Below are positions 61,313 to 63,812 of a stretch of DNA of 64,000 nucleotides, in pieces; the stretch's first letter is position 1, and each line of letters opens with the position of its first letter. The notes under the pieces were generated by a model, which did not search any database, was not told where the DNA came from, and was given only the letters and a program-made list of their open reading frames with translations. The stretch is from Nesterenkonia aurantiaca (lineage in GTDB: Bacteria > Actinomycetota > Actinomycetes > Actinomycetales > Micrococcaceae), in the NCBI RefSeq assembly GCF_004364585.1, contig NZ_SOAN01000001.1:248001-312000 (forward strand). Direction: 5' to 3'. The position numbers were made by a program, and so were the translations under genes.

Positions 61313-61339
61313 CCATCCGATCCTGATCTCGCTCCGAAC
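61313..61339 (+). promoter_or_regulatory. SigK-type promoter upstream of the fasciclin gene
   Basis: CCATCC (61313-61318), 15 bp, CCGAAC (61334-61339). This matches my recollection of the mycobacterial SigK consensus (CCATCC-N16/17-CCGAAT) apart from spacing and one base. The predicted start near 61346 gives a 70-nt leader with a good ribosome site at the end. Confidence 0.65.
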
Positions 61340-61417
61340 TCTGCGTACATGGCCTGGTCGACACCACGATCAGTGGCTGTGAACCAGACCAACGTGCGAC
61401 CAACAGGAGATTCAGTC

Positions 61418-62137
61418 ATGAAGACCGAGATTCGTAAAACCTCTTCCCTGCTCGGCATCGGCATGGTGGCCCTGCTCGGCCTCAGCGCCTGCGGCGACAG
61501 CGCGGAGCCGGCAGAAGAGACCGACCAGGAGATGACCGAAGAGACCGAGGGCACCGACGCCGAGGCCACTGAGGAAGAGCCCATGGACGAGGAGTCGATG
61601 GAGGAAGAGGAGTCCATGGACGAATCTGACCCAGCGGCGAACCTGGTCGGCGCCTCCTGTGAGGCATACGCCGAGGAAGTCCCCGAGGGTGAGGGCTCCG
61701 TGGGCGGCATGGCCCAGGATCCAGTGGCCACCGCAGCCTCGAACAACCCGATGCTGACCACGCTGACCGCGGCAGTCTCCGGTGAGCTGAACCCCGATGT
61801 CGACCTGGTGGACACGCTCAACGGTGACGAGTTCACCGTGATCGCTCCCACCGATGACGCCTTCGGCGAGATCCCTGAGGAAGACCTCAACGCAGTGGTC
61901 GAGGATGCCGACATGCTCACCGAGGTGCTGACCTACCACGTCATCCCCGGCCAGCTGTCCCCCGATGAGATCGCCGGTGAGCACGAGACCGTCAACGGCG
62001 CGACCGTGACCGTCGAGGGCGAGGGCGATGACCTCACCTTCGACGACGCCGGCCTCGTCTGCGGCGGCGTGATGACCGCCAACGCCACCGTCTACATGGT
62101 CGACGCTGTCCTGATGCCGGCAGCTGCCGAGGAGTGA
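61418..62137 (+). CDS. Fasciclin-domain lipoprotein (MPT83/MPT70-like)
   Basis: 239 residues from ATG 61418 (CAGGAG 9 nt upstream); an in-frame ATG at 61349 is possible but would hide the signal peptide. Lipobox LSAC (Cys about 25), a very acidic Glu/Asp/Thr linker, and one FAS1 domain: DPVATAASNNPMLTTLTAAV, FTVIAPTDDAFGEIPEED and YHVIPGQLSPDEI with the conserved H-x-I-P. Such surface proteins mediate adhesion or interactions. The position before sigK-rskA copies the mycobacterial mpt83/mpt70-sigK arrangement, and the promoter supports the same control. Confidence 0.9.
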   Translation: MKTEIRKTSSLLGIGMVALLGLSACGDSAEPAEETDQEMTEETEGTDAEATEEEPMDEESMEEEESMDESDPAANLVGASCEAYAEEVPEGEGSVGGMAQDPVATAASNNPMLTTLTAAVSGELNPDVDLVDTLNGDEFTVIAPTDDAFGEIPEEDLNAVVEDADMLTEVLTYHVIPGQLSPDEIAGEHETVNGATVTVEGEGDDLTFDDAGLVCGGVMTANATVYMVDAVLMPAAAEE

Positions 62138-62146
62138 TCCTCGCTG

Positions 62147-62240
62147 GGAGCGGTCGTTGAAGACCGTTCCTGACCAGGCCTGAATCGAAGACGGCGGCGC
62201 TCGGCACCCACCCATCTGTTGGGGTGCGGACGCCGCCGTC
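62147..62240. terminator. Two hairpins after the fasciclin gene
   Basis: GGAGCGGTC/GACCGTTCC (62147-62170) and a longer stem GACGGCGGCG/CGCCGCCGTC (62190-62199 and 62231-62240) with inner GCACCC/GGGTGC pairing. They separate the fasciclin transcript from sigK. Confidence 0.7.
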
Positions 62241-62314
62241 CTCGGTTGCGGTCACACAGCGGCCGGAACCGTTGGATGCAGAGATCACCCTCCGGGGTGT
62301 GGCATCCTGTGGGG

Positions 62315-62923
62315 ATGCATGAGACAGGAAATCTGGGGTCTGCCGCCGAGGGCGTGCATGCTCCGGTGGATGCCTCCGCGGATCCCTGCGGTGCTCTGCT
62401 GCTGAAGATTCAGCAGGGTGATGAGCTCGCCTTCGAGCAGCTCTACCGGGAGCAGGGTTCGATCCTGTTGGCCACCGCGCTGCGAGTGCTGCGGAACAGA
62501 TCGCTCGCGGAGGAGGTTCTCCAAGAGATCTTCACCGAGGTCTGGGTCAACTGTCACAGCTACCGCGCGCAGGTCGGCACCGGACGCGCATGGTTGACCA
62601 CCATGTGTCGGCGCCGAGCGATCGACCGGGTCCGAGCGGTACAGGCCCAGCAGAACAGAGACTTCACCCAAGGGGTGAAGGAGGCCCACGTGGTGGAGCC
62701 CGACGTCCAGGACACAGTCCTCACTCAGGTGGAGGCGGCCCGCGCGCAGACCGCGCTGCAGACCCTTCCCGAAGAGCAGGCCACCGCCATCGCGATGGCC
62801 TACTACCAAGAGCTTTCACACTCCGAGATCGCGCAGCGACTTGATGTCCCACTCGGAACCGTGAAATCTAGAATACGAGACGGCATGCGAAGACTGAGGG
62901 CCCAGCTAGGAGGTGCCGGATGA
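62315..62923 (+). CDS. sigK: ECF RNA polymerase sigma factor, SigK-like
   Basis: 202 residues from ATG 62315. Region 2: GDELAFEQLYREQGSILLATALRVLRNRSLAEEVLQEIFTEVW and TGRAWLTTMCRRRAIDRVRA. Region 4: LQTLPEEQATAIAMAYYQELSHSEIAQRLDVPLGTVKSRIRDGMRRLRAQL. It overlaps its anti-sigma gene by 4 bp (ATGA). SigK identity rests on the RskA-like partner and the adjacent fasciclin gene. GGAACC at 62265-62270 could be part of its own promoter; no CCATCC element precedes it. Confidence 0.85.
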   Translation: MHETGNLGSAAEGVHAPVDASADPCGALLLKIQQGDELAFEQLYREQGSILLATALRVLRNRSLAEEVLQEIFTEVWVNCHSYRAQVGTGRAWLTTMCRRRAIDRVRAVQAQQNRDFTQGVKEAHVVEPDVQDTVLTQVEAARAQTALQTLPEEQATAIAMAYYQELSHSEIAQRLDVPLGTVKSRIRDGMRRLRAQLGGAG

Positions 62924-63771
62924 ACGCCGATCGCGAATACCTGGCAGCCGGCCTTGCCCTCGGGACGCTGGCAGACGCCGAGATGCTCGAGGCCCTTGAC
63001 CTCGAAGCCGCCGACCCCGATTTCGCCGAAGCTGTCGCGTCCTTCCATGAGACGCTCGGACTGCTCGCCGAGACCGACGACGCCGTCGCCCCCAGCGCCG
63101 AGACCTCCGCGGCGATCCTGAACATCCCGCGCCAGCACCAGCAGGCCGTTCCGGAGCGGGCGGCTCATACCGCCGACGCTGCCCAGGCTGAGACCGCTCA
63201 CGCCTCGACCCCTGATTCCAAGGCCCCTGACGCCACGACCCCCAGCTCCAAGAGCCCCAGCTCCACGGCCCATGACACCGCGAGCCCGGCTCGCCGTCGG
63301 CGTCCGAGCACCGCGCTCTTCGCCCTGGCCGCCTCCACGCTGCTGCTGATCTCCGCCGTGCTTGCGGGTGCGCTGATCAACCAGCAGCAGGACACCAGCC
63401 AGATCGAGGACTCGCTCACCGTGGCCGAGGCCGAGCGCGAACGTGCTGAGCGGCTGCTCAGCGCCTCGGATCTGGCCTTCATCGAAGCCGAGGTGACCGT
63501 GGGCGGGCAGCTCAATCTGGCCTACTCGGTCTCCGAGCAGATGCTGCACCTGACCCCGCACGATATGCCCGAGCTCGACGAGGATCAGACCATGCAGCTG
63601 TGGCTGATCGATGAGGAGGGCCCGCGCAGCGCCGGCCTGATGACCGGTGCAAGCACCGAGCTGCTGACGGACCTCCCGATGACCCAGGACATGACCTTCG
63701 GGGTCACCGTGGAGCCTGCGGGAGGCTCCGAGGAGCCGACCAGCGACCCAGTGGTGCTCGCGGATCTATAA
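62920..63771 (+). CDS. rskA: Anti-sigma-K factor RskA-like protein
   Basis: 283 residues. N-terminal cytoplasmic anti-sigma domain (YLAAGLALGTLADAEMLEALDLEAADPDFAEAVASFHETLG), a Ser/Thr/Ala/Pro-rich linker of about 60 residues, one membrane helix (STALFALAASTLLLISAVLAG, about 130-150), then an extracytoplasmic RskA domain (LAFIEAEVTVGGQ, LWLIDEEGPRSAGLMTG, FGVTVEPAGGSEEPTSDPVVLADL). It holds SigK at the membrane until regulated proteolysis releases it. The linker is longer than in the mycobacterial protein. Confidence 0.88.
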   Translation: MNADREYLAAGLALGTLADAEMLEALDLEAADPDFAEAVASFHETLGLLAETDDAVAPSAETSAAILNIPRQHQQAVPERAAHTADAAQAETAHASTPDSKAPDATTPSSKSPSSTAHDTASPARRRRPSTALFALAASTLLLISAVLAGALINQQQDTSQIEDSLTVAEAERERAERLLSASDLAFIEAEVTVGGQLNLAYSVSEQMLHLTPHDMPELDEDQTMQLWLIDEEGPRSAGLMTGASTELLTDLPMTQDMTFGVTVEPAGGSEEPTSDPVVLADL

Positions 63772-63785
63772 CCTGGGCTCGAGGA

Positions 63786-63812
63786 CCATCCAAAGGCGCT
63801 TCCGCTCCGAAC
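63786..63812 (+). promoter_or_regulatory. SigK-type promoter before the oxidoreductase gene
   Basis: CCATCC (63786-63791), 15 bp, CCGAAC (63807-63812), identical hexamers and spacing to the fasciclin promoter. The -10 ends 7 bp before the ATG, so the transcript would begin at or next to the start codon (leaderless). Confidence 0.65.

Follow-up and report, generated by a model that had tools for sequence, protein, structure and literature searches.

SigK, an extracytoplasmic function (ECF) sigma factor, and its anti-sigma factor RskA govern a regulon in Mycobacterium that includes mpt70, mpt83 and dipZ, and SigK-type promoters carry the motif CCATCC at -35 and CCGAA at -10. Here we analyze a window of 64,000 nucleotides from Nesterenkonia aurantiaca (contig NZ_SOAN01000001.1, positions 248,001 to 312,000) in which this motif is found before a fasciclin (FAS1) lipoprotein gene and again before a molybdo-oxidoreductase gene, with sigK and rskA lying between the two. 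The locus shares with the mycobacterial system the SigK-RskA pair and an MPT70-related FAS1 target, and DipZ is a partner in some of its relatives. In M. tuberculosis, sigK is reported to be autoregulated from the promoter of Rv0449c (PMC7509140), so that the SigK promoter on which it depends stands before a different gene, as appears to be the case here. Unlike the mycobacterial locus, however, the one in the window lacks DipZ and has instead a molybdo-oxidoreductase with a probably leaderless mRNA. The system also differs in a candidate CHRD-type target elsewhere in the genome, a methionine-rich linker in its fasciclin lipoprotein, and a SigK without the Cys133/Cys183 pair, which is reported in 94% of ECF18 and 56% of ECF19 members (PMC7509140). 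The SigK of Nocardia, likened here by its description only, is likewise said to lack the two cysteines of the redox disulfide (PMC7509140); RskA in the window is full length (283 amino acids; aa).

A second parallel is found in the ECF16 systems, SigF with MrpX-YedYZ in Azospira suillum and BcrS/AbcS with BcrXQP in Brucella, which combine the same set of a sigma/anti-sigma pair, a methionine-rich extracytoplasmic protein and a molybdoenzyme of the sulfite-oxidase family (PMC8315932). The SigK locus belongs to another ECF group and has another anti-sigma family, its lipoprotein carries a FAS1 domain, and its enzyme has a dimerisation-like C-terminal domain and predicted membrane helices of its own, with a reductase role that is putative. 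The anti-sigma partner of A. suillum SigF is NrsF. In the alphaproteobacterium Rhodobacter capsulatus, a SigK-RskA-like pair, RpoE-ChrR, lies near photosynthesis genes and increases, as do methionine sulfoxide reductases, on exposure to singlet oxygen, and its targets differ from those described here as far as the available text tells (PMC7074977).

Candidate promoter elements at the SigK locus

The two elements probably act as promoters of a local SigK-RskA regulon and would be read by the SigK encoded between them, a reading to which we give, from sequence and comparison, a probability of roughly 80%. The initial annotation had reported CCATCC-N15-CCGAAC (N15 being a 15-nucleotide (nt) spacer) twice with the same spacing, and both copies proved exact. 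TC directly follows the -10 hexamer in both, and CGCTCCGAACTC is common to both at the 3' side. Only these two places in the window match the pattern with fewer than two mismatches. The six other matches have two, and the total of eight, compared with 10.7 expected from shuffles, places the two-mismatch class at chance level.

Across the N. aurantiaca genome (2.95 Mb in 25 contigs), nine exact places were found with spacings of N13-N19, three of them with N15. A search with the extended pattern CCATCC-N12-GCTCCGAAC returned 15 places (three perfect, none with one mismatch and 12 with two) versus three for the reversed-motif control. The perfect places are the same three as the exact N15 places, and each lies upstream of a correctly oriented gene. 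The third stands on contig C14 (L011 3998-4024), 72 nt before a secreted CHRD-type open reading frame (ORF) that is cut by the contig end. In 30 Nesterenkonia genomes the N15 pattern occurred at 70 places, 36 of which read GCTCCGAAC, as compared to two places for the motif read backwards; these totals, and the genome-by-genome tallies of motif and ortholog given below, were summed by hand from listings. A chance doublet was rejected on the basis of the genus counts and of the step from three perfect to no one-mismatch places in the genome itself.

A SigK ortholog (>210 bits) is present in 19 of the 30 genomes, and 18 of these 19 loci carry both the fasciclin and the oxidoreductase genes. The element has been kept at both genes in all 18. 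Before the fasciclin gene, 17 sites with at most one mismatch were found by script and that of G003 (CAATCC-N15-CCGAAT) by eye; before the oxidoreductase gene, every site has at most one mismatch, with N15 in six loci and N16 in twelve. The remaining locus (G005) is without both genes; here a site lies 137 nt upstream of the point where the sigK alignment begins (query residue 19), which looks as though the promoter had been retained after loss of the fasciclin gene.

We then considered 80 named SigK loci, nearly all actinobacterial, of which 69 have a fasciclin gene and 54 had their oxidoreductase upstream regions scored. An N15 site with at most one mismatch precedes 64 of the 69 fasciclin genes. 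At the same tolerance, spacings N9 to N14 gave 1, 10, 9, 0, 0 and 0 matches and N16 to N22 gave 3, 0, 4, 3, 8, 1 and 2, an uneven control with its near-matches chiefly at N10, N11, N20, N18 and N19. When matching was strict (with G also accepted as the last base of the -10), a site at N15 or N16 was found before 57 of the 69 fasciclin genes and 38 of the 54 oxidoreductase genes; other spacings contributed N11 (4) and N20 (2) before fasciclin genes, and one match each at N12 and N20 before oxidoreductase genes. Nine of 14 dipZ genes have an N15 site with at most one mismatch. A class-wide set of 20 further SigK loci, scanned from N14 to N18, held eight strict sites in seven loci, all with N15 and some not before a fasciclin gene; the three class-wide loci taken for Mycobacterium gave no strict site. 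The initial annotation had thought the N15 spacer short in comparison with mycobacteria, and we rejected the idea that it is an oddity, as it is the usual spacing before fasciclin genes and the only one among the class-wide strict sites. Taken together, conservation at the genus and named loci lends support to the local SigK regulon, and to its parallel with the mpt70/mpt83-sigK-rskA locus, that had been suggested from the window.

Some results weigh against this reading. Five of the 69 fasciclin genes have no N15 site at one mismatch or fewer (two of these have N16), and 12 of 69 fasciclin and 16 of 54 oxidoreductase genes are without a strict site. None of the 12 molybdoenzyme genes distant from sigK (L224-L235) has a strict site. 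With G allowed as the last base of the -10, their best site has two mismatches, like those at control spacings, so that the data give no support for SigK sites before molybdoenzyme genes that lie outside the sigK locus. Finally, SigK is the best NCBIfam model for the sigma factor of the window, but at 175 bits it falls below the curated cut-off of 226.

A probably leaderless start of the molybdo-oxidoreductase

The ATG of the oxidoreductase gene lies 7 nt after the -10 in 15 of the 18 Nesterenkonia loci and 8 nt after it in the other three. At such a distance the mRNA is probably leaderless, as the initial annotation had anticipated, and the conservation of the distance in all 18 loci argues in favour of this. 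In Brevibacterium the oxidoreductase gene stands before the fasciclin gene and not after rskA, and the ATG is again at 7-8 nt in 11 of the 16 named loci; in the other five there is no strict site, or the gene is absent or cut at the locus. In Arthrobacter-like relatives, the -10 is often followed by the first plausible start at a distance of 63-69 nt, or by a GTG 5 nt away. Leaderless initiation thus seems to be a feature of certain lineages. Fasciclin genes have 52-98 nt between the -10 and the ATG, with a Shine-Dalgarno-like sequence (loose pattern), in all 36 cases examined.

Downstream of the oxidoreductase gene, past an opposite-strand aminotransferase-like gene, lie two ORFs that by eye resemble the molybdate transporter components ModA and ModB (L010 5879-7548).

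SigK and its probable autoregulation

The best PDB match of the sigma factor is M. tuberculosis SigK (4nqw, E 3e-30). In 18 aligned Nesterenkonia SigK sequences (L061, with an internal stop, was dropped from the 19), the column of Cys133 holds Ala or Ser and that of Cys183 holds Ala, with no Cys in any. We assigned these columns ourselves, as the printed 4nqw stretch has two cysteines 50 residues apart (RVRC and RQC), as are 133 and 183.

The initial annotation had seen no copy of the element before sigK and, by this element, no autoregulation. The first part stands, since no element lies directly before sigK in the window, and only three of the 80 named loci have a strict N15 site 160 nt or less from sigK itself. 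The second part is weak, since sigK follows the fasciclin promoter in the same orientation, which makes autoregulation by read-through likely. Of the 69 named loci with a fasciclin gene, 60 have it in this upstream position and orientation, and nine have it on the other strand. The gap between the two genes folds at -101 kcal/mol in the window (z -4.8), and no terminator-like T tract was found there. Among 17 Nesterenkonia gaps (G016 was left out), the best 60-nt fold ranges from -38.8 to -56.4 kcal/mol in 16 and is -20.8 kcal/mol in G028, and a long G+C hairpin begins 39-60 nt past the fasciclin stop in 16. SigK therefore likely drives its own gene by partial read-through past this hairpin, as far as can be judged from gene order and folding.

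We infer a scheme in which RskA would hold SigK at the membrane until an envelope signal frees it. Freed SigK would bind the sites and transcribe the fasciclin gene, and reduced read-through past the hairpin into sigK-rskA would provide positive feedback. It would also transcribe the molybdo-oxidoreductase gene as a leaderless mRNA and, elsewhere in the genome, the gene of the CHRD-type secreted protein.

Methionine-rich lipoproteins and their partner enzymes

We tentatively propose, with somewhat less than even confidence, that in actinobacteria the regulon may serve envelope defence against oxidants, in which the methionine (Met)-rich linker of the fasciclin lipoprotein would be an oxidant sink, sensor or substrate and the molybdoenzyme or DipZ would supply reduction. 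Such a methionine system would work in the manner of the ECF16 MrpX-MsrPQ systems of proteobacteria, of independent origin and not homologous to them.

The fasciclin protein of the window has MPT70 as its best PDB match (1nyo, E 2.8e-54). The linkers of 60 fasciclin lipoproteins, a subset of the 69 loci with the gene, contain 195 Met in 2379 residues (8.2%), no Cys and no His, and Leu, Ile, Val, Phe, Trp and Tyr together make up 0.13%. The mean of 16 genus means for linker Met is 8.8%, compared to 2.5% (15 genus means) in the remaining lipoprotein-like ORFs at those loci, although the controls include mis-sorted SigK-locus proteins or ORFs that do not represent real genes (L127 and L166). The background of the linkers shifts from Asp/Glu-rich (47%) in Nesterenkonia to Ser/Thr/Ala/Pro-rich (69%) in Arthrobacter, and Met stays. 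In hydrophobic-free stretches of at least 25 residues, Met reaches at least 5% in 53 of 59 target segments and in 11 of 131 control segments from ORFs of the loci analyzed, L155, L059 and L164 among the 11 being again mis-sorted or not real.

At L196, from Brachybacterium sp. YJGR34, the fasciclin gene is replaced by one for a 92-aa lipoprotein whose 70 mature residues include 12 Met; a perfect N15 site lies 79 nt ahead of this gene. The FAS1 domain can thus be lost while a Met-rich lipoprotein remains. In two Actinomyces loci (L155 and L156), a KMSDG-repeat lipoprotein adjoins dipZ; L155 has a site before dipZ and no strict site before the lipoprotein gene, and no site was found in L156. Pfam and NCBIfam scans gave no MXKDX/MrpX family match for the Met-rich lipoproteins of these three loci, though it was not established that either library contains a model of that family. 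A literature search returned no paper on fasciclin lipoproteins rich in Met, nor any on the oxidation of methionine in connection with SigK regulons of actinobacteria, though most subscription papers lay outside its coverage and the absence is unproven.

Partner genes were called within 4-4.5 kb of sigK, or a shorter span where contig ends cut the locus, at >100 bits for DipZ and E ≤ 1e-5 for other genes. Over the 100 named and class-wide loci, a molybdoenzyme was found in 65, DipZ in 16, both in none and neither in 19, with a Fisher value of 3e-9 for the exclusion, a calculation that assumes an independence the loci do not have. Six groups account for the 16 DipZ loci: Actinomyces, Sinomonas, Pseudoclavibacter, Mycetocola, Salinibacterium and two loci taken for Mycobacterium. 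The DipZ of L159 has the domains DsbD_TM, AhpC-TSA and Thioredoxin_10. A second fasciclin-SigK locus (L223) of the Brevibacterium genome that contains L142 has a molybdoenzyme and a one-mismatch N15 site.

Light is reported to induce the mpt83 and mpt70 homologues of M. kansasii (PMC9861118). This response, that of R. capsulatus to singlet oxygen, and the carotenoid genes described below fit photo-oxidative or oxidant stress, but prove nothing.

Other findings speak against the proposed defence. Linker Met is lower and uneven in the class-wide loci (as read from a listing; the lipoprotein ORF survey behind it includes L067, likewise mis-sorted or not a real gene), and 19 of the 100 loci have neither enzyme. 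Among the 14 genomes of named DipZ loci, six (Pseudoclavibacter and Sinomonas) carry a molybdoenzyme elsewhere without a SigK-type site; the exclusion is local to the SigK locus. Salinibacterium has Met-rich linkers and only DipZ, with no molybdoenzyme match found, and a strict coupling of the Met-rich tail with the molybdoenzyme is hence unsupported. We know of no methionine sulfoxide reductase activity for this molybdoenzyme, and its predicted fold and two retained residues of the SorA sulfite site, considered next, count on the same side.

Alternative functions and an alternative sigma factor

It is possible, if rather doubtful, that the SigK regulon exists but that the molybdoenzyme is a sulfite or other sulfur dehydrogenase, the fasciclin protein a surface adhesin, and the linker Met without a redox role. 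The enzyme has one Mo domain (Pfam Oxidored_molyb), predicted membrane helices in its first 165 residues and, by eye, a twin-arginine-like SRRRFL stretch. An AlphaFold model of the copy from Nesterenkonia sp. E16_10 (mean predicted local distance difference test, pLDDT, 76; predicted template modelling score, pTM, 0.61) has a sulfite-oxidase fold. Its best PDB folds are sulfite oxidases and dehydrogenases, including chicken sulfite oxidase and SorA, and MsrP (1xdy, 1xdq) appears from rank 31 on, so that the enzyme, by its predicted fold, resembles sulfite oxidase more closely than MsrP. The Mo-ligand cysteine, C327, is kept in 96% of 57 aligned oxidoreductases. We placed the active-site residues of SorA through mutant chains such as Y236F. 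The sulfite-site R55 and Y236 are kept as R279 and Y437, which favours a sulfite enzyme, but the position of H57 is taken by Asp281, and the segment following the cysteine is short and without Arg (CVSNPVGG, compared to CSGNSRGFVEP in SorA). No sulfite-enzyme model of NCBIfam reaches its cut-off (SorA 103 of 600, SoxC 87.6 of 420 and SorT 65.9 of 570 bits), and the MsrP (YedY) family model is also below its curated cut-off (63.6 of 207 bits). A linker Met without a redox role is at odds with the selectivity for Met in the linkers and with the persistence of a Met-rich lipoprotein where the fasciclin domain is gone.

Judged by the composition of the linkers, it appears improbable that the Met-rich segments of a SigK regulon bind copper(I) and that envelope copper, instead of oxidised methionine, is what the regulon deals with. 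Met-rich stretches outside the cytoplasm are known to serve as copper(I) ligands, and DipZ is of a thiol-reducing family (DsbD_TM with AhpC-TSA), both of which would suit such a role, but the pooled linkers have neither His nor Cys. That both sites are read by an ECF sigma factor other than the adjacent SigK is highly improbable: the N. aurantiaca genome does hold two more SigK matches at E ≤ 1e-15 (36% and 30% identity), but sigK loci have retained the site in many genera, and the perfect extended N15 motif occurs in 15 of the 19 genus genomes with a SigK ortholog and in three of the 11 without. Among these three, G026 contains a further SigK-RskA pair, and the completeness of G006 and G025 is only 79% and 82%.

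Features of the window, other targets and neighbouring genes

The calls of fasciclin, sigK-rskA and molybdo-oxidoreductase genes made from the window were borne out by Pfam, PDB and the ORF on the full contig (Table 1).

Table 1. Features of the SigK locus, with positions in the window
Feature	Position	Strand	Basis or remark
Candidate SigK-type promoter 1, -35 CCATCC, N15, -10 CCGAAC	61313..61339	+	would serve the fasciclin-sigK-rskA unit; exact match, conserved in 18/18 Nesterenkonia loci with the gene
Fasciclin (FAS1) lipoprotein gene, MPT70-like; 78 nt from -10 to ATG, Shine-Dalgarno-like AGGAG	61418..62137	+	Pfam Fasciclin, PDB
Linker codons, lipobox Cys to FAS1; 50 aa with 24 Asp/Glu and 4 Met, no Leu, Ile, Val, Phe, Trp, Tyr, Cys or His	61493..61642	+	translation
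Strong G+C hairpin in the fasciclin-sigK gap; could be an attenuator or a stem for mRNA processing	62186..62245	+	folding
sigK, ECF sigma factor; M. tuberculosis Cys133/Cys183 places are Ala108/Ala158	62315..62923	+	structure and family match
rskA, anti-sigma factor, 283 aa; one predicted membrane helix at about residues 130-154, RskA_C	62920..63771	+	Pfam, helix prediction
Candidate SigK-type promoter 2, CCATCC-N15-CCGAAC	63786..63812	+	molybdo-oxidoreductase; exact match, conserved in 18/18 (N15 in 6, N16 in 12)
Molybdo-oxidoreductase gene start, 561 aa, runs past the window end (L010 3020-4705)	63820..64000	+	ATG 7 nt after -10

To look for further targets in the genus, we read 42 loci downstream of N15 places, representing 40 distinct places. 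A CHRD-type protein lies behind the site at 11 places in nine genomes, the N. aurantiaca copy included. In Brachybacterium L151 the site stands before a CHRD protein (Pfam match over the cut-off) that is 43% identical to a Nesterenkonia one, which itself has no Pfam CHRD match. An acidic lipoprotein of 460-485 aa was found at six places, one of them cut by a contig end. In G026 (L102 2722-5584), an acidic Met-containing lipoprotein of 460 aa, with no Pfam or NCBIfam match, heads an operon with the second SigK and RskA, and at the G028 place a SigK-like gene lies about 1.7 kb downstream. A small membrane protein (81-99 aa) ending in QIGQFQ lies behind SigK-type sites at three places (L095 757-1002, L088 and L105), with a fourth probable in another frame; the L095 protein has no Pfam or NCBIfam match. 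Of the remaining N15 places, some are those of the fasciclin gene and the rest lie inside or beside unrelated genes.

Genes for phytoene desaturase, a phytoene synthase-like protein and isopentenyl-diphosphate isomerase adjoin the SigK locus on the minus strand (window 56500-59611), and carotenoid genes likewise adjoin five of the nine named Nesterenkonia SigK loci (L122-L126). The locus is preceded by a gene for an NAD-binding short-chain dehydrogenase/reductase with DUF2867 (window 59723-61267). A homologue of the latter lies beside the SigK loci of four Pseudoclavibacter (L178, L180, L186 and L190; about 52% identical) and of L170 (62%). L170 is titled Sporosarcina beigongshangi and has a complete Arthrobacter-like SigK locus; the name or the assembly may be wrong.

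Implications

The promoter of the molybdo-oxidoreductase offers a naturally occurring example in which the distance between promoter and start codon is conserved and the mRNA is probably leaderless, and relatives apparently keep a leader. The signal for SigK is called unknown in print (PMC7509140). The loci described here suggest one that can be tested, oxidant damage to surface methionine, with Nesterenkonia, Brevibacterium and Glutamicibacter as the genera in which to do so. If the proposed defence of the envelope through methionine is true, proteins of the MPT70/MPT83 type would gain a function.

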